Source of the DNA: Peptoniphilus vaginalis
GTDB taxonomy: Bacteria > Bacillota > Clostridia > Tissierellales > Peptoniphilaceae
Assembly (NCBI RefSeq): GCF_900176605.1
Contig: NZ_FXLP01000005.1
Location: forward strand, 248,001-312,000
DNA: 64,000 bases
Direction: 5' to 3'
In this document: positions 33,951 to 52,705 of the stretch, piece by piece
Layout of the letters: every line of letters begins with the position of its first letter
Position numbering within the stretch: the first letter of the stretch is position 1
The notes under the pieces: generated by a model
Seen by the model: the letters and a program-made list of their open reading frames with translations, nothing else
Told to the model about the DNA's origin: nothing
The model's database searches: none
Program-made: the position numbers and the translations under genes

Positions 33951-35315
33951 ATGAGGGAAGTCAATTTACTAAGGGGAAATATTTTTTCTGCCCTATTAAA
34001 AATGGCTTTGCCGCTAATGGGAACTGCCTTTGTTCAAATGGCATATTCTCTTGTAGATTTAATGTGGTTGGGACGACTCTCTACAGAAGCAGTAGCTGCT
34101 GTAGGGGCCTGTTCCTTTTTAGTTTGGATGGCTCAGGCCATAACCCTTGTTGCCAAGACAGGAGTTTCTGTTGGACTGTCTCAGGCCTTTGGAAGGAATG
34201 ATGAGGAGTCGTCAAAAAAAGTTTGGATAGCAGGATTTATAATTAATTCAATCTTTTGTATAGGTTTAATGACCTTATACATAAGTATGAGAAATAATAT
34301 TATTGGCTTTTATAGACTAGAAAAATCTGTTCACACTATGGCAGTTGATTATTTATTAATTGTCAGTGGAGGACTTATTTTTACTTTTTTAAATCCAATC
34401 TTATCTTCAGCTTTTTTTGCTAAGGGAAATTCAATAACACCCTTTAAGATTTCAATTATTTCCCTAATAATTAATTTAATCCTGGATCCCTTTTTCATCT
34501 TTGGAATTTGGATATTTCCAGAAATGGGAATAAGGGGAGCAGCCTATGCTACTGTTCTTGCCCAGATGGTATCGAGCCTATTGTATCTTTACGTTGGAGT
34601 AGTAAATAGAGAAATATTTGTGAGGACAAATTATTTTAAGATGCCTGAAAGCTCTTACTTTAAATCAATTCTAAATCTTGGCTTGCCTGCATCACTCCAG
34701 TCTTTAATTCATGCTTCAGTGAGTATGATATTAAATAGATATATAGCAAGCTTTGGAGCTTTATACATTGCTGTTTATTCCATTGGATCGCAAGTAGAGT
34801 CTATTTCCTGGATGACTGCTGATGGTTTTTCCGTTGCCTTCTCAGCATTTTTTGGTCAAAATTTTGGAGCAAAAAATTATGAAAGGCTTCATCATGGAAG
34901 AAGAGAGGCCTTGAAAATTATAAACATAATTGGAATTTTTGCTACAGTCCTCTTATTTTTCTTTGCAGAAAATTTATTTAGACTCTTTATACCTAAGGAC
35001 CCTGAGGCCATTATAGCCGGTATAGATTATTTAAAAATTCTAGCTTTTTCGCAATACTTTATGACTTTAGAAATTGGTACTACAGGTATGTTAAATGGAC
35101 TTGGCCTCACGAGGTATCCCGCTATAAATTCTATGGTATTTAATGTGTCAAGGATTCCTATGGCTCTTTTATTAATGCAAATTTTACATGTAAATGGAAT
35201 ATGGACGGCCATGACCCTATCATCAGTTTTAAAGGGAATATTTTTAACTTTTATGTATTATTATTTGCGAAAAAAGACTAAAGGTTTTAGAATTAATATG
35301 AAAAGTTATTTATGA
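33951..35315 (+). CDS. MATE family efflux transporter
   Basis: Multidrug and toxic-compound extrusion transporter of 454 residues with twelve predicted membrane helices. Family features include PLMGTAFVQMAYSLVDLMWLGRLSTEAVAAVG at the first helices and an internal second half starting LNLGLPASLQSLIHASVS. The substrate cannot be told from sequence. It is followed closely by the cyclophilin gene. Confidence 0.92.
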   Translation: MREVNLLRGNIFSALLKMALPLMGTAFVQMAYSLVDLMWLGRLSTEAVAAVGACSFLVWMAQAITLVAKTGVSVGLSQAFGRNDEESSKKVWIAGFIINSIFCIGLMTLYISMRNNIIGFYRLEKSVHTMAVDYLLIVSGGLIFTFLNPILSSAFFAKGNSITPFKISIISLIINLILDPFFIFGIWIFPEMGIRGAAYATVLAQMVSSLLYLYVGVVNREIFVRTNYFKMPESSYFKSILNLGLPASLQSLIHASVSMILNRYIASFGALYIAVYSIGSQVESISWMTADGFSVAFSAFFGQNFGAKNYERLHHGRREALKIINIIGIFATVLLFFFAENLFRLFIPKDPEAIIAGIDYLKILAFSQYFMTLEIGTTGMLNGLGLTRYPAINSMVFNVSRIPMALLLMQILHVNGIWTAMTLSSVLKGIFLTFMYYYLRKKTKGFRINMKSYL

Positions 35316-46348: not shown

Positions 46349-46396
46349 AAATTATACCACAAGTGTTGCACGCAATCAACACTTGTGGTATAATTT
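46349..46396. promoter_or_regulatory. Perfect 20-bp inverted repeat holding two overlapping divergent promoters
   Basis: The arms at 46349-46368 and 46377-46396 are exact inverse copies (AAATTATACCACAAGTGTTG) around an 8-bp centre. Each arm contains a TATAAT: minus-strand -10 at 46351-46356 with TTGATT at 46374-46379, and plus-strand -10 at 46389-46394 with TTGCAC at 46366-46371. Both have 17-bp spacing. The two -35 boxes are two bases apart. The better -35 belongs to the repressor side. Confidence 0.85.
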
Positions 46397-46407
46397 ATGT
46401 TGAATAG

Positions 46408-46478
46408 ATGGAACGAGATAACTTCTATATTTTTTTAAGTTGAGCGTTCCATTAAATCAACAACAAGAAAGAAGTTAT
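46408..46478 (+). promoter_or_regulatory. Interleaved inverted repeats in the early leader (possible pseudoknot)
   Basis: ATGGAACG (46408-46415) is complementary to CGTTCCAT (46445-46452), and ATAACTTCT (46418-46426) to AGAAGTTAT (46470-46478). The order 1-2-1'-2' is that of an H-type pseudoknot. It would lie in the first 80 bases of the rightward phage transcript, before the 74-residue gene. Confidence 0.5.
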
Positions 46479-46510
46479 TTTATCACAAGCTAAAATATAA
46501 AGAAAGGAAG

Positions 46511-46735
46511 ATGCCTATTAAAGAAATTCAAGAAGTAAAAGATGCAAATAATAAACTTATTTGTAAAATTGAAGCAGAAACTGGGATATTACAAAATATC
46601 TATAAAAAACAAGAAATTAAAGTTAGACTTGAAGTCGGACAAAGTATTGAACTAGCTAGAGGTGGATGTATCACCTTAGTTAAAAGAATAGATAAAACAG
46701 AGTACGACATAAAGAGTTACAAAAAATCAGCATAA
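46511..46735 (+). CDS. Small phage protein of 74 residues
   Basis: The first rightward gene after the divergent promoter, with AGAAAGGAAG before the ATG. The product alternates short strands and charged segments (KLICKIEAETGILQNIYKKQEIKVRLEVGQSIEL). It has no membrane segment, no clear HTH and no motif that I recognise. Position would suit a Cro-like or early regulatory protein, but the sequence does not show it. A terminator follows. Confidence 0.7.
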   Translation: MPIKEIQEVKDANNKLICKIEAETGILQNIYKKQEIKVRLEVGQSIELARGGCITLVKRIDKTEYDIKSYKKSA

Positions 46736-46756
46736 ATTTTTAAGAGCTGCAAGACG

Positions 46757-46793
46757 GCCTAATTTATCTTAACGGATGAATTAGGCTTTTTTT
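46757..46793 (+). terminator. Terminator after the first early gene
   Basis: A 12-bp stem with one G-U pair (46757-46768 with 46775-46786) followed by TTTTTTT. It separates the 74-residue gene from the rest of the early genes, so passage would need antitermination or another promoter. Confidence 0.9.
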
Positions 46794-46819
46794 ATTACAA
46801 ATTATATCAAGCCTGATTA

Positions 46820-46996
46820 GCTATAAGGGCGTGAGATACACATATAAACTAATTTCAATCAATTTTGAAAGAAGTATATGGAGTACCTCTAGTTTCTTAT
46901 AGCCTTTTTTAGGTGAAAGACAACTATGCTCCATAAACTGTAGGTAAAATTTGTATTTCTCGCTCCTTGCTATCGGGCAAGAAAGCGAGGAATATT
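46820..46996 (+). promoter_or_regulatory. Long structured leader of the sigma-like gene
   Basis: About 180 non-coding bases hold a long-range inverted repeat (GCTATAAG near 46820 with CTTATAGC near 46900, then TTTTTT). Just before the gene is a strong local hairpin: CTCGCT (46959-46964) with AGCGAG (46984-46989) and TTGC (46967-46970) with GCAA (46977-46980). The last hairpin covers part of the AGCGAGG ribosome site of the next gene. Confidence 0.5.
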
Positions 46997-47584
46997 TTGA
47001 AAATTAGAAAGACTAGATCGGACGAAAGAACCACGTATGTTTATAGGTTTGCAGATGAAACAAAAGTGGAACTAAAACCAGGAAAAGATGGGATAACAGA
47101 AGTGGACATCAAAAAACTACATGCTTTAGACGACAGTGAAGTTTACTATAACAACAAGAATCTAAGACCTGAACGAACTAAAGAAGAGAAAGCTGAAATA
47201 GATGCGTGGAAACAAGAATTTATAAGCGACTTTAAAAAGAGTAATGGATATGAACCTAATGAGGATTTGTTAAAAGGAGAAGTGGAGGAAAGATTCCCAA
47301 GGAACTATAACTTATCTCTTGATTTCGATAACGATGGGGATATTGATCCAGATAAAAGATTAATAGCAACTATTAAATCCAAAGACATGAATGAAGAATT
47401 TGAATGGTCGGAGCATATGGAAAATATACTTTCTTTATTAACGGATAAACAGCGATTAGTAATCAAGTTGATGTTTGTGGATGGATACAAGCAGTCAGAA
47501 ATTGCAGATTTAATGAACATATCTTCAGCTGCGGTTAAGAAACATTTGGATAAGGCAAAAGAAACAATCAAAAATAATTTTTAA
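46997..47584 (+). CDS. Sigma-70-like phage regulator
   Basis: A 195-residue protein. The N-terminal part matches the small RFADETKVELKPGKDGITEVDIKKLHALDDSE module found in Firmicute phage and ICE sigma-like proteins. The C-terminal 60 residues form a sigma region 4 type HTH (LTDKQRLVIKLMFVDGYKQSEIADLMNISSAAVKKHLDKAKETI). The TTG at 46997 is chosen, six bases after GCGAGG; the upstream TTG at 46967 lies in the hairpin stem and would add ten residues. It probably controls phage transcription, but whether it is a true sigma factor is unknown. Confidence 0.83.
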   Translation: MKIRKTRSDERTTYVYRFADETKVELKPGKDGITEVDIKKLHALDDSEVYYNNKNLRPERTKEEKAEIDAWKQEFISDFKKSNGYEPNEDLLKGEVEERFPRNYNLSLDFDNDGDIDPDKRLIATIKSKDMNEEFEWSEHMENILSLLTDKQRLVIKLMFVDGYKQSEIADLMNISSAAVKKHLDKAKETIKNNF

Positions 47585-47591
47585 ATATTTT

Positions 47592-47619
47592 AGGACGAGG
47601 TTAAAAACTCGTCCTTTTT
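47592..47619 (+). terminator. Terminator after the sigma-like gene
   Basis: AGGACGAG pairs with CTCGTCCT around a GTTAAAAA loop, then TTTT. It is the first half of a module that recurs at 51935. Confidence 0.88.
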
Positions 47620-47669
47620 CTTTGCCTGTGATTTGTAAGGGAGATGACCCTTTCAGAAAGGAGGCAAAC
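47617..47669 (+). promoter_or_regulatory. RBS-sequestering leader, copy 1
   Basis: TTTGCCT (47621-47627) pairs with AGGCAAA (47662-47668), locking the end of the AAAGGAGG ribosome site. Inside, AAGGG (47637-47641) pairs with CCCTT (47648-47652). The first 18 bases, TTTCTTTGCCTGTGATTT, are identical to 51959-51976. Confidence 0.65.
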
Positions 47670-47921
47670 ATGAGGCATAAAATAATCATCAATGTAACAA
47701 ATGAGAAAGGACAAAAAACAAATGTCCTTAAAGGTGCAGTCGGGAAAATTCCAAACAGATTAATAAAATTTTTGTTTGGAGATTACAGACAGATTTATCT
47801 ATTAGACCCTGGGATGACAGTTGATTCAGTGGATGTTAGAGAAATCGAGAAAGGAGAAAAAAGTGTCAAGAATAAAGCTACTAATGGAAATCAAAGAAGA
47901 TGCAGAGAATCTTGCATCTAG
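47670..47921 (+). CDS. Small phage protein of 83 residues
   Basis: Starts at ATG 47670 after AAAGGAGG. The core VTNEKGQKTNVLKGAVGKIPNRLIKFLFGDYRQIYLLDPGMTVDSVDVREI is basic with a hydrophobic middle and no known domain. Proteins like this often precede DUF2800 genes in Firmicute phages; no role is established. Its last 59 bases overlap the next gene in another frame, which is unusual for the region and suggests coupling. Confidence 0.7.
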   Translation: MRHKIIINVTNEKGQKTNVLKGAVGKIPNRLIKFLFGDYRQIYLLDPGMTVDSVDVREIEKGEKSVKNKATNGNQRRCRESCI

Positions 47922-48159
47922 TATAGGTGTCCTTCTCACAGCACTAGAAAGTGATGAGGAACTACCTAAAGAAGAAAAGGTAAAACAAGAAGAAAAGATT
48001 TATGAGATTGAAGATGTTAGAAAGATACTAGCCGACAAATCAAGATTAGGCCATACAGCTAAGATAAGAGAACTATTAGAAAAGTATGGGGCTAAAAAGC
48101 TATCTGAGATTGATCCAGGCAACTATAAAGACTTGGTAGCAGATGTGGAGAAACTCTAA
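47863..48159 (+). CDS. Small helical phage protein of 98 residues
   Basis: A GTG start at 47863 is preceded by AAGGAG at six bases; the open frame before it has no ribosome site. The protein is an acidic coiled segment (MEIKEDAENLASSIGVLLTALESDEELPKEEKVKQEEKIYEIEDVRKILADKS) followed by a compact end (KIRELLEKYGAKKLSEIDPGNYKDLVADVEKL). That end resembles the short domain seen in phage proteins sometimes labelled rRNA biogenesis protein rrp5. A DNA- or protein-binding helper of the next genes is a guess. It shares its final base with the DUF2800 start. Confidence 0.75.
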   Translation: MSRIKLLMEIKEDAENLASSIGVLLTALESDEELPKEEKVKQEEKIYEIEDVRKILADKSRLGHTAKIRELLEKYGAKKLSEIDPGNYKDLVADVEKL

Positions 48160-49283
48160 TGGGTGATCACGCAATATTGTCTGCCTCAAGTAGTTCACGT
48201 TGGATTCACTGCCCTCCAAGCGTTAGGCTTTCTCAAAAATATGCAGATGAGGTTAGTCCTTATGCACTTGAAGGCACATCAGCTCATGCCTTAGCAGAAT
48301 ACAAGCTAAAAAAGATATTAGGCTTTAATGTAAAAGATCCTTCTGATGATTTGGATTTTTATGATGAGGAAATGGATGACCTAACCGAAGGATATGCCTC
48401 ATATGTAACGGAAGTTATAAGTAGGTATGAAAGCACAGCCGTATTCGTGGAAGAAAGACTTGACCTATCAGACTATGTTAAAGAGTCATTTGGTACAGCT
48501 GACTGTGTAGTTGTTGGAGGAAAAGAACTTCATGTAATAGATCTAAAGTATGGTCAGGGAGTTTTAGTAGATGCTAAAGATAATTCACAACTCATGTTAT
48601 ACGGACTTGGTGCATTGACTCTCTTTGATGGAATTTATGATATCGAGAAAGTAGTTCTTCACATATATCAACCAAGAAGATGTAACATATCAACTTATGA
48701 AATCAATAAGATAGAACTTTATAAGTGGGGAGAATCTGTACGAGAGATTGCAGAGAAAGCTTACAAAGGAGAAGGAGAATTCTCATGTGGAGAATGGTGC
48801 ATCTTTTGCAAAGCAAAGAACAGATGCAGGAAAAGAGCAGAAGAGAATCTGAAACTAGCACAAGATGAATTTACTCTACCACCAGAACTATCTGACGATG
48901 AAATTGAAGAGATTTTACCAAGACTAGACGAACTGGAACAATGGGTCAAAGATATCAAGGCTTACGCTTTAGAAAGAGCAATGAAGGGTCATAGATGGAA
49001 GGATCTAAAACTTGTCGAAGGTAGATCTAATAGAAAATACCGAGATGAAGATGAAGTTATTAACAAAGTAAAAGAACTGGGATTTAATCCCTTTGAAGAA
49101 AAGTTACTTGGCATCACAGCTATGACTAAGTTACTAGGTAAGAAAGTCTTTGATGAAAATATCAGCGACTTATTAGAAAAACCAAAAGGAAAGTTGACCT
49201 TAGTAAGTATTGATGACAAGCGAGAAGAAGTAAAAATTGACAATGTTAAAGAAGAATTTGGAGGATTTAATTATGCAAAATAA
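48159..49283 (+). CDS. DUF2800 protein, PD-(D/E)XK nuclease-like
   Basis: A 374-residue DUF2800 phage protein. It opens HAILSASSSSRWIHCPPSVRLS, the conserved family start. The nuclease-like core is VEERLDLSDYVKESFGTADCVVVGGKELHVIDLKYGQG, with Asp and DLKYG as likely catalytic residues of a Cas4/AddB-like fold. A cysteine set (C..EWCIFCKAKNRCRKRA) could bind an iron-sulfur cluster. The role is probably exonuclease in phage recombination with the DUF2815 protein that follows. That is inference from fold and context. Confidence 0.88.
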   Translation: MGDHAILSASSSSRWIHCPPSVRLSQKYADEVSPYALEGTSAHALAEYKLKKILGFNVKDPSDDLDFYDEEMDDLTEGYASYVTEVISRYESTAVFVEERLDLSDYVKESFGTADCVVVGGKELHVIDLKYGQGVLVDAKDNSQLMLYGLGALTLFDGIYDIEKVVLHIYQPRRCNISTYEINKIELYKWGESVREIAEKAYKGEGEFSCGEWCIFCKAKNRCRKRAEENLKLAQDEFTLPPELSDDEIEEILPRLDELEQWVKDIKAYALERAMKGHRWKDLKLVEGRSNRKYRDEDEVINKVKELGFNPFEEKLLGITAMTKLLGKKVFDENISDLLEKPKGKLTLVSIDDKREEVKIDNVKEEFGGFNYAK

Positions 49284-49818
49284 AACAAAAGTAATTACTG
49301 GTGAAGTTAGATTAAGCTATGCGAATGTTTGGGAACCAAAGTCAATCAATGGTGGTAAAGAAAGGTACTCAGTATCTGTCATTATCCCAAAGAGCGACCA
49401 AAAGACAATTGAGAAGATTGAAAAGGCAGTAGATGCTGCCATTGATGAAGGACTTTCTAAATTCAATGGAAAAAAACCTAATAAGAAAGCTATCAAACTT
49501 CCATTAAGAGATGGAGACACAGAAAAAGATGATGAGGCTTATGCTGACGCATACTTCTTAAATGCTAACTCTATGACAGCACCTCAAATTGTGGATAGAA
49601 ATGTAGAACCAATTCTTGAAAGAAGTGAAGTTTACTCAGGAGTATATGCGAGGGTATCACTAAATTTTTATGCCTACAATGTAAATGGTAATAAGGGCGT
49701 AGCGGTTGGCCTCGGAAATATTCAAAAACTGAGAGATGGTCAGCCTCTAGGAAATAGGTCTAATGCAGCAGATGACTTTGATGCCATGGACGATGATGAC
49801 GAAGATTTCTTAGCATAG
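49273..49818 (+). CDS. DUF2815 ssDNA-binding-like protein
   Basis: A 181-residue DUF2815 protein. Its pattern (KVITGEVRLSYANVWEPKSINGGKERYSVSVIIPKSD) and strongly acidic end (DDFDAMDDDDEDFLA) resemble phage single-strand binding proteins. The ATG at 49273 follows TTGGAGG; the ORF extends in frame to 49237, where there is no ribosome site. It overlaps DUF2800 by 11 bases and is part of the replication/recombination set. Confidence 0.87.
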   Translation: MQNKTKVITGEVRLSYANVWEPKSINGGKERYSVSVIIPKSDQKTIEKIEKAVDAAIDEGLSKFNGKKPNKKAIKLPLRDGDTEKDDEAYADAYFLNANSMTAPQIVDRNVEPILERSEVYSGVYARVSLNFYAYNVNGNKGVAVGLGNIQKLRDGQPLGNRSNAADDFDAMDDDDEDFLA

Positions 49819-49827
49819 GAGGAAGAA

Positions 49828-50028
49828 ATGGATTATTTAATTACAGCGATAGTTTTAGCTATTTGGTCCTTTTTATGGTATAAGCTTGGATTTTTACAAG
49901 CTCAGTTAAAAGAACTAGATAGAGATATCAGAAAAATAGAAAAACAAATAAAAGAAGATAGAAAAAATAATTTAGCAGAATTAACAAAGCTTAGTGATAG
50001 CTATGAAGAAATTGTCCATAGATCTTGA
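49828..50028 (+). CDS. Small membrane protein with coiled coil, 66 residues
   Basis: A good AGGAGGAAG site precedes the ATG. One hydrophobic helix at residues 3-22 (YLITAIVLAIWSFLWYKLG) is followed by a charged coiled coil (QAQLKELDRDIRKIEKQIKEDRKNNLAELTKL). No family is recognised. Its end overlaps the polymerase gene by 26 bases. Confidence 0.7.
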   Translation: MDYLITAIVLAIWSFLWYKLGFLQAQLKELDRDIRKIEKQIKEDRKNNLAELTKLSDSYEEIVHRS

Positions 50029-51934
50029 GACCTATTCTTCAGTTGATTTAGGCAAAAGTGGTGTATACAAATATGCCGAGAGTGAGGATTTTGAAATCCT
50101 CCTCTTTGCCTATTCTATTAATGATGAAGAAGTTAAGGTCATGGATTTGGCAAGTGGAGAGATTATTCCTGAAGAAATATTGTCAGCCCTTAGTGATGAA
50201 AACATAGAAAAGTGGGCCTTTAATGCAAATTTTGAAAGGGTGTGTCTATCTAGGTTTTTAGGTAAGAGACTAAAACCTCAAGGTTGGTACTGCACTATGA
50301 TTTGGTCAGCCTATCTTGGTCTACCTCTATCGCTTGAAAAAGTAGGAGAGGTTTTAAGACTTGATAAGCAAAAGATGAATGAAGGCAAGGCTCTCATAAG
50401 ATATTTTTCTATTCCTTGTAAACCAACTAAAACCAATGGTATGAGGACAAGAAATCTACCACATCACGACTTAGAAAAGTGGTCTACTTTTAAGGAATAT
50501 AACAAAAGAGATGTGGAAACAGAAATGGAGATAAAGAAAAAACTATCAGCCTTTCCTATGCCTCAATCAGAATGGGAAAACTACTGGGTAGACCAAAACA
50601 TCAATGACAGAGGAATCTTAATTGATGAAGTTTTAGTTGATTCAGCTATTAAATTTGATGAGATATTACGAGATGAAAACATGGATAGAGCCATAGAATT
50701 AACTGGTCTTGAAAATCCAAATTCTCCCTTACAGCTTAAAGAATGGCTTAATAGAAAAGGCTTAGAGATAGATTCCTTAGCTAAAAAAGATGTAGAGTCT
50801 GCTCTTAAAAATGCTGAAGGAGATATTAAAGAAGTACTGGAACTTAGACAGGAATTATCTAAGTCTTCAGTTAGAAAATATGATGCTATGAAAAATGTAA
50901 AAGGAAAAGATAATCGAGCAAGAGGTCTGATCCAATTCTATGGAGCAAATAGAACTGGAAGATATTCGGGCAGGCTTATTCAAGTTCAAAACTTAAGGAG
51001 AAACAATCTAAAAGATTTAGACTTAGCTAGGAGTCTTGTAAAAAATAGAGATTATGAAACTATGGAAATTCTCTATGAATCTCCTTCTGATATTTTATCC
51101 CAACTAATAAGGACAGCCTTTATAGCAAAAGAAGGCACCAGGTTTATTATTTCTGACTTTTCAGCAATCGAGGCCCGTGTCCTTGCTTGGCTTGCAGAAG
51201 AACAATGGGTATTGGAAGCCTTTGAAAATGGAGAAGATATTTATTGTAGAACAGCATCGAGGATGTTTGGAGTGCCAGTTGAAAAACATGGGGTAAATGG
51301 ACATCTCAGGCAAAAAGGAAAAATAGCGACTTTAGCCTGTGGTTATCAAGGGGCCTTAGGTGCCCTTAAAGCAATGGGTGGTATTGAGATGGGTTTATCT
51401 GAAGATGAACTTCAATCAATAGTCGATTCCTGGCGAGAGGCGAATCCTAACATCGTAAGCTTGTGGTGGGATATAGATTCTGTCGTAAAAAGAGTTGTAA
51501 AGACTAGAAGTAAAGAAGAATACAAGAACCTAGTTATTAGCTATGAAAAAGGCATTCTTTTTATAGAACTTCCTTCAAAAAGAAGACTTTCTTATCCAAA
51601 AGCAAAAATCGGGATGAATCGATTCGGTGGAGAATCAATAGTCTATGAAGGAATCGTAGTTGGAAATAAGTGGGACAAGATTGAATCCTATGGTGGAAAA
51701 TTTGTAGAAAATATAGTTCAAGCCATCGCAAGAGATATTTTAGCAGAGGCTATGATGAGACTTGAGAAAAAAGGATTTAATATCGTCATGCATATTCATG
51801 ATGAAGTTGTAATAGAAAGTGATTCATCTAGTATCGAAGAAATAAATGAAATCATGTCCATAGTTCCTAGTTGGGCACCTGGACTTATCTTAGATGCAGA
51901 TGGATTTGAAAGTGAATTTTATAAAAAAGATTAA
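50003..51934 (+). CDS. Phage family A DNA polymerase with 3'-5' exonuclease domain
   Basis: A 643-residue polymerase. The exonuclease domain starts KLSIDLETYSSVDLGKSGVYKY, with the DLE motif. The polymerase domain has GRYSGRLIQVQNLRR (motif preceding A), ISDFSAIEARVLAWLAEE (motif A Asp), a motif B-type helix around RQKGKIATLACGYQGALGAL, and MHIHDEVVIES (motif C). It replicates the phage genome. The ATG at 50003 fits the family opening; the ribosome site is weak and the gene overlaps the one before, suggesting coupling. A terminator follows. Confidence 0.93.
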   Translation: MKKLSIDLETYSSVDLGKSGVYKYAESEDFEILLFAYSINDEEVKVMDLASGEIIPEEILSALSDENIEKWAFNANFERVCLSRFLGKRLKPQGWYCTMIWSAYLGLPLSLEKVGEVLRLDKQKMNEGKALIRYFSIPCKPTKTNGMRTRNLPHHDLEKWSTFKEYNKRDVETEMEIKKKLSAFPMPQSEWENYWVDQNINDRGILIDEVLVDSAIKFDEILRDENMDRAIELTGLENPNSPLQLKEWLNRKGLEIDSLAKKDVESALKNAEGDIKEVLELRQELSKSSVRKYDAMKNVKGKDNRARGLIQFYGANRTGRYSGRLIQVQNLRRNNLKDLDLARSLVKNRDYETMEILYESPSDILSQLIRTAFIAKEGTRFIISDFSAIEARVLAWLAEEQWVLEAFENGEDIYCRTASRMFGVPVEKHGVNGHLRQKGKIATLACGYQGALGALKAMGGIEMGLSEDELQSIVDSWREANPNIVSLWWDIDSVVKRVVKTRSKEEYKNLVISYEKGILFIELPSKRRLSYPKAKIGMNRFGGESIVYEGIVVGNKWDKIESYGGKFVENIVQAIARDILAEAMMRLEKKGFNIVMHIHDEVVIESDSSSIEEINEIMSIVPSWAPGLILDADGFESEFYKKD

Positions 51935-51965
51935 AGAGGGGGTTAAAAATCCCCTCTATTTCTTT
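51935..51965 (+). terminator. Terminator after the DNA polymerase gene
   Basis: AGAGGGG (51935-51941) pairs with CCCCTCT (51951-51957) around GTTAAAAAT and is followed by ATTTCTTT. The loop matches that of the terminator at 47592. Confidence 0.85.
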
Positions 51966-52015
51966 GCCTGTGATTTAGGAGGGAAACCTCTTAAAAATTC
52001 ACAGGAGGTAATTCA
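51959..52015 (+). promoter_or_regulatory. RBS-sequestering leader, copy 2
   Basis: The first 18 bases are identical to 47617-47634. Here CCTGTGA (51967-51973) pairs with TCACAGG (51999-52005), the latter overlapping the AGGAGGT ribosome site. Inside, AGGAGG (51977-51982) pairs with CCTCTT (51987-51992) around GAAA. Confidence 0.65.
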
Positions 52016-52705
52016 ATGAAGGAATTAATACCAAAGAACGATTATGGAATATTTGCAGATCACAATGATGTTGCAAGGGTGGACAGTAGATTTGTAGCAG
52101 AGTTTTTTGAAAAGAGGCACTCTAATGTTATAAGAGATATACAAACAATCACTCAACCCAAATCTGGGCTCAGTGAAGAATTTATTGAACTCAATTTTGA
52201 GCTCAGCAGTTATAAGGATGTAACTGGAAGAAATCTACCATGTTATTTATTAACTAGAGATGGATTTACTATTTTAGCTATGGGTTACACGGGCAAAAAA
52301 GCCATGAAATTTAAAGAGCTCTATATTAAGAAATTTAACGAGATGGAAGAATTCATAAAGACTCTAGTATCAGCTAGAAATGAATTCCCTCTTTTAACCG
52401 AGAATATAAGATTGCTTCATGACAATCCAAAAGCTTATCACTTTAGTAATGAGTGTAACATGCTGAATCGTATCGTTTTAGGTAAGAGTGCAAAAGAATT
52501 TAGATTAGAAAATGATATACCAAAAGGAAAAAGTATAAGACCATATCTGAATCAATCACAAATAGAGATGATTGAAACCTTGCAAAAGGTAGATATTGGT
52601 TTATTAGTAGCATTTCCTAATTATCAAGACAGAAAGAAACACCTTGAATGGTACAAGCAAAAATTGGAGGTACAAAATGTTTTATGTGAAAGAAAGAATC
52701 AATGA
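52016..52705 (+). CDS. Rha-family phage regulator / antirepressor-like protein
   Basis: A 229-residue protein. Residues 20-115 are a Rha (pRha) domain: VDSRFVAEFFEKRHSNVIRDIQTI and the typical LPCYLLTRDGFTILAMGYTGKKAMKFKELYIKKFNEME. The rest (about 115-229) is a helical region that I cannot assign to ORF6N, ANT or KilA-C. Rha proteins regulate lysogeny or host range in several phages. Expression seems gated by the leader hairpin just upstream. Confidence 0.87.
   Translation: MKELIPKNDYGIFADHNDVARVDSRFVAEFFEKRHSNVIRDIQTITQPKSGLSEEFIELNFELSSYKDVTGRNLPCYLLTRDGFTILAMGYTGKKAMKFKELYIKKFNEMEEFIKTLVSARNEFPLLTENIRLLHDNPKAYHFSNECNMLNRIVLGKSAKEFRLENDIPKGKSIRPYLNQSQIEMIETLQKVDIGLLVAFPNYQDRKKHLEWYKQKLEVQNVLCERKNQ

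Follow-up and report, generated by a model that had tools for sequence, protein, structure and literature searches.

A 64-kb stretch of Peptoniphilus vaginalis DNA (contig NZ_FXLP01000005.1, positions 248,001 to 312,000; here called the window) raises the question of why two unrelated genes in the early region of a prophage, one opening a gene set with DUF2800 and the other encoding a Rha regulator, are preceded by the same arrangement of sequence. The initial annotation saw one leader RNA module used twice, with an identical 18-base segment as the possible target of a single trans-acting RNA or protein. Both copies are present, and the 18-mer, TTTCTTTGCCTGTGATTT, is exact at 47617-47634 and 51959-51976 (coordinates are positions in the window unless stated, and codes starting with L or G are analysis labels for loci and genomes, respectively). 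There is no further match with up to 3 mismatches in the window, and at that tolerance 3 of 100 shuffles had two or more matches. The shared unit is larger than the 18-mer, being a rigid 33 bp, GTTAAAAA-N9-TTTCTTTGCCTGTGAT, with fixed spacing between its two blocks; it is termed here the A-type element. The notion of one trans-acting factor survives in altered form, as the shared strand appears to be a target as DNA for the phage's own sigma-like protein and not as leader RNA. The best explanation, and one in which we have considerable confidence from comparison of sequences, is that the element is a promoter, or an activator site, read by that protein. A description of the element was not found in the open-access literature searched.

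The A-type element and the sigma-like protein

The prophage has three A-type sites. One is behind a gene whose product contains sigma region 4, another precedes rha, and the third, which is outside the window, precedes recombinase genes. Copy 1, the proposed promoter of the DUF2800 set, is at 47600..47632 on the forward strand (GTTAAAAA at 47600-47607, N9, TTTCTTTGCCTGTGAT at 47617-47632), and copy 2, the proposed rha promoter, is at 51942..51974 on the same strand (GTTAAAAA at 51942-51949, N9, TTTCTTTGCCTGTGAT at 51959-51974). The third copy is about 30 kb downstream at contig position 330424 (L107:19424), has 1 mismatch and is followed by a small gene and by genes that look like recombinases. 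When the window and the next 33 kb of the contig were scanned, three sites had at most 1 mismatch of 24 and the next best had 7, and in the whole genome the pattern has three matches at up to 3 mismatches with none for a reversed control. All three sites are also present in a 38.9-kb IMG/VR contig (G149) whose DUF2800 protein is identical to that of the window. Spacers and flanks differ between the copies while both blocks are unchanged.

The sigma-like protein gene (46967..47584, forward strand) ends 15 bp before copy 1, and its true start is likely the TTG at 46997 (MKIRKT...), judging from relatives. Pfam, TIGR02937 and homologues point to a Sigma70 region 4 at the C-terminus of the product, behind a conserved N-terminal domain. 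Pfam Sigma70_r4_2 matches residues 152-200 above the gathering score (E 6e-11), the TIGR02937 score is 45.0 bits with a cut-off of 42.9, and matches to structures in the PDB fall on the C-terminal part. NCBIfam matches start at residue 81 or later among the 25 of 52 families listed. The family phrog_1740, 'RNA polymerase sigma factor', spans residues 22-204, with the sigma regions not told apart.

Searching viral contigs with this protein gave 26 loci (43-100% identity, several near-identical), and in 26 of 26 the gene is immediately followed by an A-type element, which has as many as 4 mismatches in the most distant loci. Among 149 genomes, that of the window included, nine have a near-full-length homologue (52-100%) and in all nine the element is within 20 bp of the gene end; a tenth match, in G039, is partial (residues 5-60) and is without an element behind it. 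Four deposited phages, Javan105, Gva_AB1, TPDSL_ph1 and NatCom_43819, were found via the protein and examined after the rule was formed. When 90-99% of each record was scanned with the element behind the phage's own sigma-like gene as query, each of the four had three sites with 0-2 mismatches, the next best match having 6 mismatches in NatCom_43819 and more than 6 in the other three phages. These sites are behind the sigma-like gene, behind the DNA polymerase gene and behind an endolysin/amidase gene, the last of them preceding recombinase genes in three of the four phages.

Block 1 differs where the recognition helix of the protein differs, and does so near-identically across the copies of one phage, the versions being GTTAAAAT, GGTAAAAT, GTTTACTA, CTTAAAAA, TTCGAA and TCCGAA. 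The L323 type has GTTAAAAT with CTGTGAC in three copies, the L324 type has GGTAAAAT/A with CTGTTA in three copies, and both sites of L412, L413 and L418 combine GTTTACTA with the old second block (apart from a single base in one L412 copy), while block 1 of L431 is CTTAAAAA. TTCGAA is in both leaders of a distant clade, given here the label Lachnospiraceae-type, and TCCGAA in both of L030; the second blocks of these contain TTAT or CATAT about 16-17 bp away. With one phage per helix type and nine helix types, the identity of block 1 is 0.97 between copies of one phage versus 0.76 between helix types (permutation p 1e-4). The corresponding values are 0.56 versus 0.45 for the spacer and 0.95 versus 0.88 for the second block.

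Particular residues go with particular bases. The recognition helix VKKHL goes with TTAAAA and ITKRL with TTTACTA. Where an Arg follows the helix Val or Ile ([VI]R), block 1 has CGAA (8 of 8), and CG is there in 0 of the 21 other proteins among the 29 compared, a count made with blocks read by eye in related sequences that may have perhaps three independent origins. L412-type proteins are 63-70% identical in their N-terminal part and 44-47% in region 4, and their block 1 is changed with the second block the same or one base off. L423 has 60% identity in the N-terminal part, 22% in region 4 and the helix VRKDI; its block 1 is GTACGAAT, yet CTTTGACTG is kept. The sites, putative promoters, co-vary with region 4, and the protein and the element look modular in their parts.

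From the geometry, the three sites per phage, the co-occurrence and the co-variation we infer promoter function. Block 1 would be at the -35 position and be read by the C-terminal region 4, and the second block would be around -10, read perhaps by the N-terminal domain or by something bound to that domain. The early transcript would stop at a terminator that surrounds the element. With the sigma-like protein present, transcription would begin just downstream of the element, giving the DUF2800 set, rha and the recombinase genes, and the mRNAs so initiated probably begin with the inner hairpin. In 25 of 25 leaders that we selected for their length (with no shuffle control), the first paired base of that hairpin is 1-5 nt past the element, as expected if the 5′ end of the mRNA started there. 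Read-through RNA from upstream would contain the promoter strand, and before rha that strand could pair with the ribosome binding site (RBS), with a consequence for translation considered below. No sigma-70-like promoter was found on the forward strand from 46353 to 52700.

All features of the locus are on the forward strand. The hairpins placed before the 18-mer by the initial annotation are there, one a terminator-like stem-loop that belongs to the sigma transcript and encloses block 1 of copy 1 (47592..47615) and the other a terminator-like stem-loop 3′ of the DNA polymerase gene around block 1 of copy 2 (51935..51957), and so are the inner hairpins (47633..47656 and 51975..51994), each probably the 5′-terminal stem-loop of a promoter-initiated mRNA. 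None of the 200 shuffles of either stretch folds as well as the stretch itself (z -4.5 and -5.6). The gene for an 83-residue protein (47670..47921; phrog_7234) opens the DUF2800 set and is followed by the DUF2800 protein gene (48159..49283), whose product also matches the PD-(D/E)XK nuclease superfamily, a gene for an Enc34-type single-stranded DNA-binding protein (49273..49818; the DUF2800-neighbour gene is named DUF2815 in Gva_AB1) and polA, of the DNA polymerase A family (50003..51934). The Rha regulator gene is at 52016..52705 (Phage_pRha, E 5e-35). Two more terminator-like structures, at 46756-46787 and about 46820-46911 (the second seen by eye), separate the first early gene from the sigma-like gene, and so the latter may itself sit behind an attenuator.

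A second protein/unit pair

A different sigma-like protein, of 178 amino acids, is encoded by sister phages whose DUF2800 gene set is almost the same. In the six loci inspected (L006:2230-2430, L007, L013, L021, L025 and L029) its gene is followed by three or four copies of a B-type unit, also 33 bp, ACTCAAAA-N10-TGTCCTAAGGAATAT, with a period of 48 nt in five of the six, L025 being less regular. The arrays read in frame as a repeat peptide, LTQ....CPKEYERRN. The 178-residue protein is present in 13 genomes. All 11 homologues with at least 62% identity have B-type units no more than about 20 bp from where the gene stops, and two weak ones (49% and 35%) are without B-type units near that point.

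The two kinds of unit also occur together. A B-type unit is 51-53 nt upstream of 22 of 50 listed A-type sites, these being recombinase-type leaders with that of the window's prophage included, and within 330 nt downstream of 10; the remaining 18 are without a B-type unit nearby, and 14 of them are copy 1 or copy 2 in phages that encode the first protein. In the recombinase leader at the prophage end (G000:C1:330373-330456; L107:19373-19456) the two unit types are 51 nt apart with 1 mismatch each. It is the B-type units upstream of 22 of the 50 sites that suggested a second reader. The A-type element is present at up to 3 mismatches in 29 of the 149 genomes, and 20 of these are without the first sigma-like protein, which tells against the promoter reading and weakens the idea of that protein as the only reader of A-type sites. 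Among the 20, dual units are present in 14, three have only satellite-like elements and three have neither (G078, and G100 and G107 at 3 mismatches). The second protein/unit pair would account for most of the sites in genomes that do not encode the first protein.

The small satellite-like elements (L365-L368 and L370-L372) have an NrS-1/D5-like primase and an HK97-type capsid gene, and carry A- and B-type units before the primase gene. L368 and L370 also hold a recombinase, named from its sequence and not by search.

Promoter, leader RNA or another kind of site

The element could instead work as RNA, with a hairpin that has a GUUAAAAA loop and a conserved 3′ strand being bound by one trans-acting RNA or protein and controlling termination or translation. 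The strong folding of both stretches is in keeping with this, as is part of the outcome of a stem test in which block 1 was held unpaired at 24 sites of our choosing. At class 1 and 2 sites block 1 is in the loop of a stem of terminator strength (-8 to -15.5 kcal/mol), except at L324 copy 1, where the stem has -2.2 kcal/mol and no GC pair. Class 3 stems are weaker (-4 to -8 kcal/mol), that of class 4, the Gardnerella phages, is trivial (-0.6 kcal/mol), and L385, L386 and L291 have no pair enclosing block 1. The 33-bp geometry is the same at all 24 sites, stem or not. That the element is often without a GC-rich hairpin makes an RNA module unlikely, and its block 1 tracks a DNA-recognition helix. 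The initial annotation had also pointed to an RNA motif named after DUF2800 genes in Firmicutes. The link finds no backing in Rfam: at gathering score there are 0 matches in the window or in 13 related loci, and relaxed searches gave no DUF2800 family at E up to 10 in 47500-52100 or at E up to 5 in a 301-base stretch of L062.

Pairing near the RBS gives a divided answer. Both pairings of the initial annotation can form in read-through RNA, TTTGCCT with AGGCAAA (47662..47668), which adjoins the RBS of the 83-residue gene, and CCTGTGA (51967-51973) with TCACAGG (51999..52005), which overlaps that of rha; the covariation claimed for them holds for copy 2, not for copy 1, and among homologous phages the outer stem is kept before rha and not before the 83-residue gene. 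Across 13 distinct selected rha leaders 97.8% of 91 cells are paired (2 of 500 shuffles reach this), the covariation score is equalled in 2 of 500 shuffles, and two pairs are changed on both sides (L431 and L324; 17 of 500 shuffles), the latter being also a point for a leader RNA. One rha pair is A-U in NatCom_43819 and G-C in the window, a change the tool scored as one-sided against the commonest G-U. In L067 the copy-2 pairing is 14 bp, and class 4 has a 10-bp RBS pairing (p 0.02). RBS hiding at every site is rejected as a general rule on a shuffled-upstream control and the helix test. With pairing kept before rha in the selected leaders and not before the 83-residue gene, and the general accessibility test negative, a device for hiding the RBS like that of phage T4 is plausible for the rha leader only. 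The outer stem of copy 1 not being conserved and the accessibility control being negative count against the RNA module too, which is on balance quite improbable.

Gardnerella phages L125, L127, L147, L151, L156, L160, L161, L176 and L250, and Gva_AB1 (L457) at 34637, have a further site with a perfect pairing, across the start codon, between TTTGCCTGTG and CACAGGCAAA(TG). In Gva_AB1 the gene that follows this site carries the annotation of another RNA polymerase sigma-70 subunit, and a cascade is possible.

The promoter reading has several results to contend with. No model for sigma-70 region 2 is among the Pfam matches of the protein and the second block in this clade is unlike TATAAT, and the protein may therefore act as an activator instead of a sigma factor. 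The sister units are tandem repeats inside coding DNA, which is unusual for promoters. L443 shows no element, L424 fits only if block 1 is shifted by one base, and the copies in L425 and L427 differ in two block-1 bases (GCTAATAA versus GCTAAAAT). The phages are related, so that the counts are not independent, and many class 3 loci were retrieved by the N9 pattern itself, leaving the sigma-anchored loci as the ones that test spacing. On the side of translation, the copy-2 pairing is absent in L157 (p 0.56), L062 (p 0.78) and L063 (p 0.51), the copy-1 RBS pairing before the 83-residue gene is not conserved and has p 0.12 in the window, and the accessibility of the Shine-Dalgarno sequence in read-through RNA is not below that in the shuffled-upstream control (0.41 versus 0.35), with 1 of 42 sites in the lowest 10%.

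Some of this would suit a DNA site for the sigma-like protein that is not a classical promoter, either an operator or activator site used with a host sigma factor or a site for replication or recombination. A region 2 missing from the profile matches, a non-canonical -10 in this clade, the arrays of three or four sister units and the placing of sites near replication and recombinase genes all lean that way. Against these are the 42 of 53 sites followed at 14-50 nt, in the same orientation, by a Shine-Dalgarno sequence and a start codon (with a search reach of about 90 nt), the hairpin that begins right after the element, and the TTAT at about 16-17 bp in the second blocks of the distant clade; such a site is unlikely. 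A common DNA repeat spread without function would account for the identical 18-mers. The blocks are the same in spite of differing spacers and flanks, and in diverged phages the copies have changed together, which leaves this idea strongly disfavoured, with hardly any standing unless the concerted changes are gene conversion. A promoter read by the phage's own protein accommodates the evidence best.

Relation to known phage regulators

A phage-encoded sigma-like factor with its own promoters is of a known kind; the present family, its code and the dual sites were not found in the open-access literature searched. NCBIfam PRK06930, 'positive control sigma-like factor', which we take to be Xpf of PBSX, matches the sigma-like protein of the window weakly (E 2e-7, 30.9 bits, cut-off 136). 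Xpf is described as the positive control factor of PBSX and is listed with sigma2 and sigma4 (PMC10141391). The two are alike in being small, prophage-encoded and equipped with sigma region 4, and in a placing suited to the control of genes that come later. The window protein differs in being without a detected region 2, and the sites of its phage precede replication, rha and recombinase genes.

The gut phages of Ca. Heliusviridae have DUF2800, DUF2815 and DNA polymerase I among nine genes shared by the family, and the available portion of that account reports no such promoter, the word 'promoter' occurring 0 times in its main text (PMC9226167). The window phage has DUF2800, DUF2815-type and DNA polymerase genes and is likened to the family by these three. 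NatCom_43819, which is filed under Ca. Heliusvirales, carries the sigma-like protein and three sites. A wider proposal, made tentatively and at a little under even chances, is that heliusvirid-type phages carry interchangeable pairs of sigma-like protein and promoter with a modular code, recognition helix to block 1 and N-terminal domain to block 2, and that tandem sites for two pairs, present in recombinase cassettes and in small satellite-like elements that encode a capsid, could let these be switched on by a phage of either kind, resident or incoming. If true, the timing of middle genes in a very common gut phage lineage would be readable from sequence, with regulator, sites and specificity code all in view. 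The natural swaps of domain and site (L412 type and L423) make the promoter-recognition code directly testable, and the dual sites hint at how integration modules and satellite-like elements could listen to more than one helper.

The T4 genes I-TevI, soc and e are reported to have a promoter inside a hairpin with the RBS (PMC2988022). As there, read-through RNA may hide the RBS by means of sequence missing from the later transcript. Here this is backed for the rha leader only, and the host and the modification of polymerase differ. The integrase promoter of staphylococcal prophages is described as a conserved non-sigma-A element that lies directly before the integrase gene and is read by sigma H (PMC2869324), and so resembles the present sites in having a non-sigma-A element before a recombinase-type gene with an alternative sigma factor as probable reader. 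In the staphylococcal case that sigma factor is the host's, while here it is apparently phage-encoded and the recombinase leader has two unit types.

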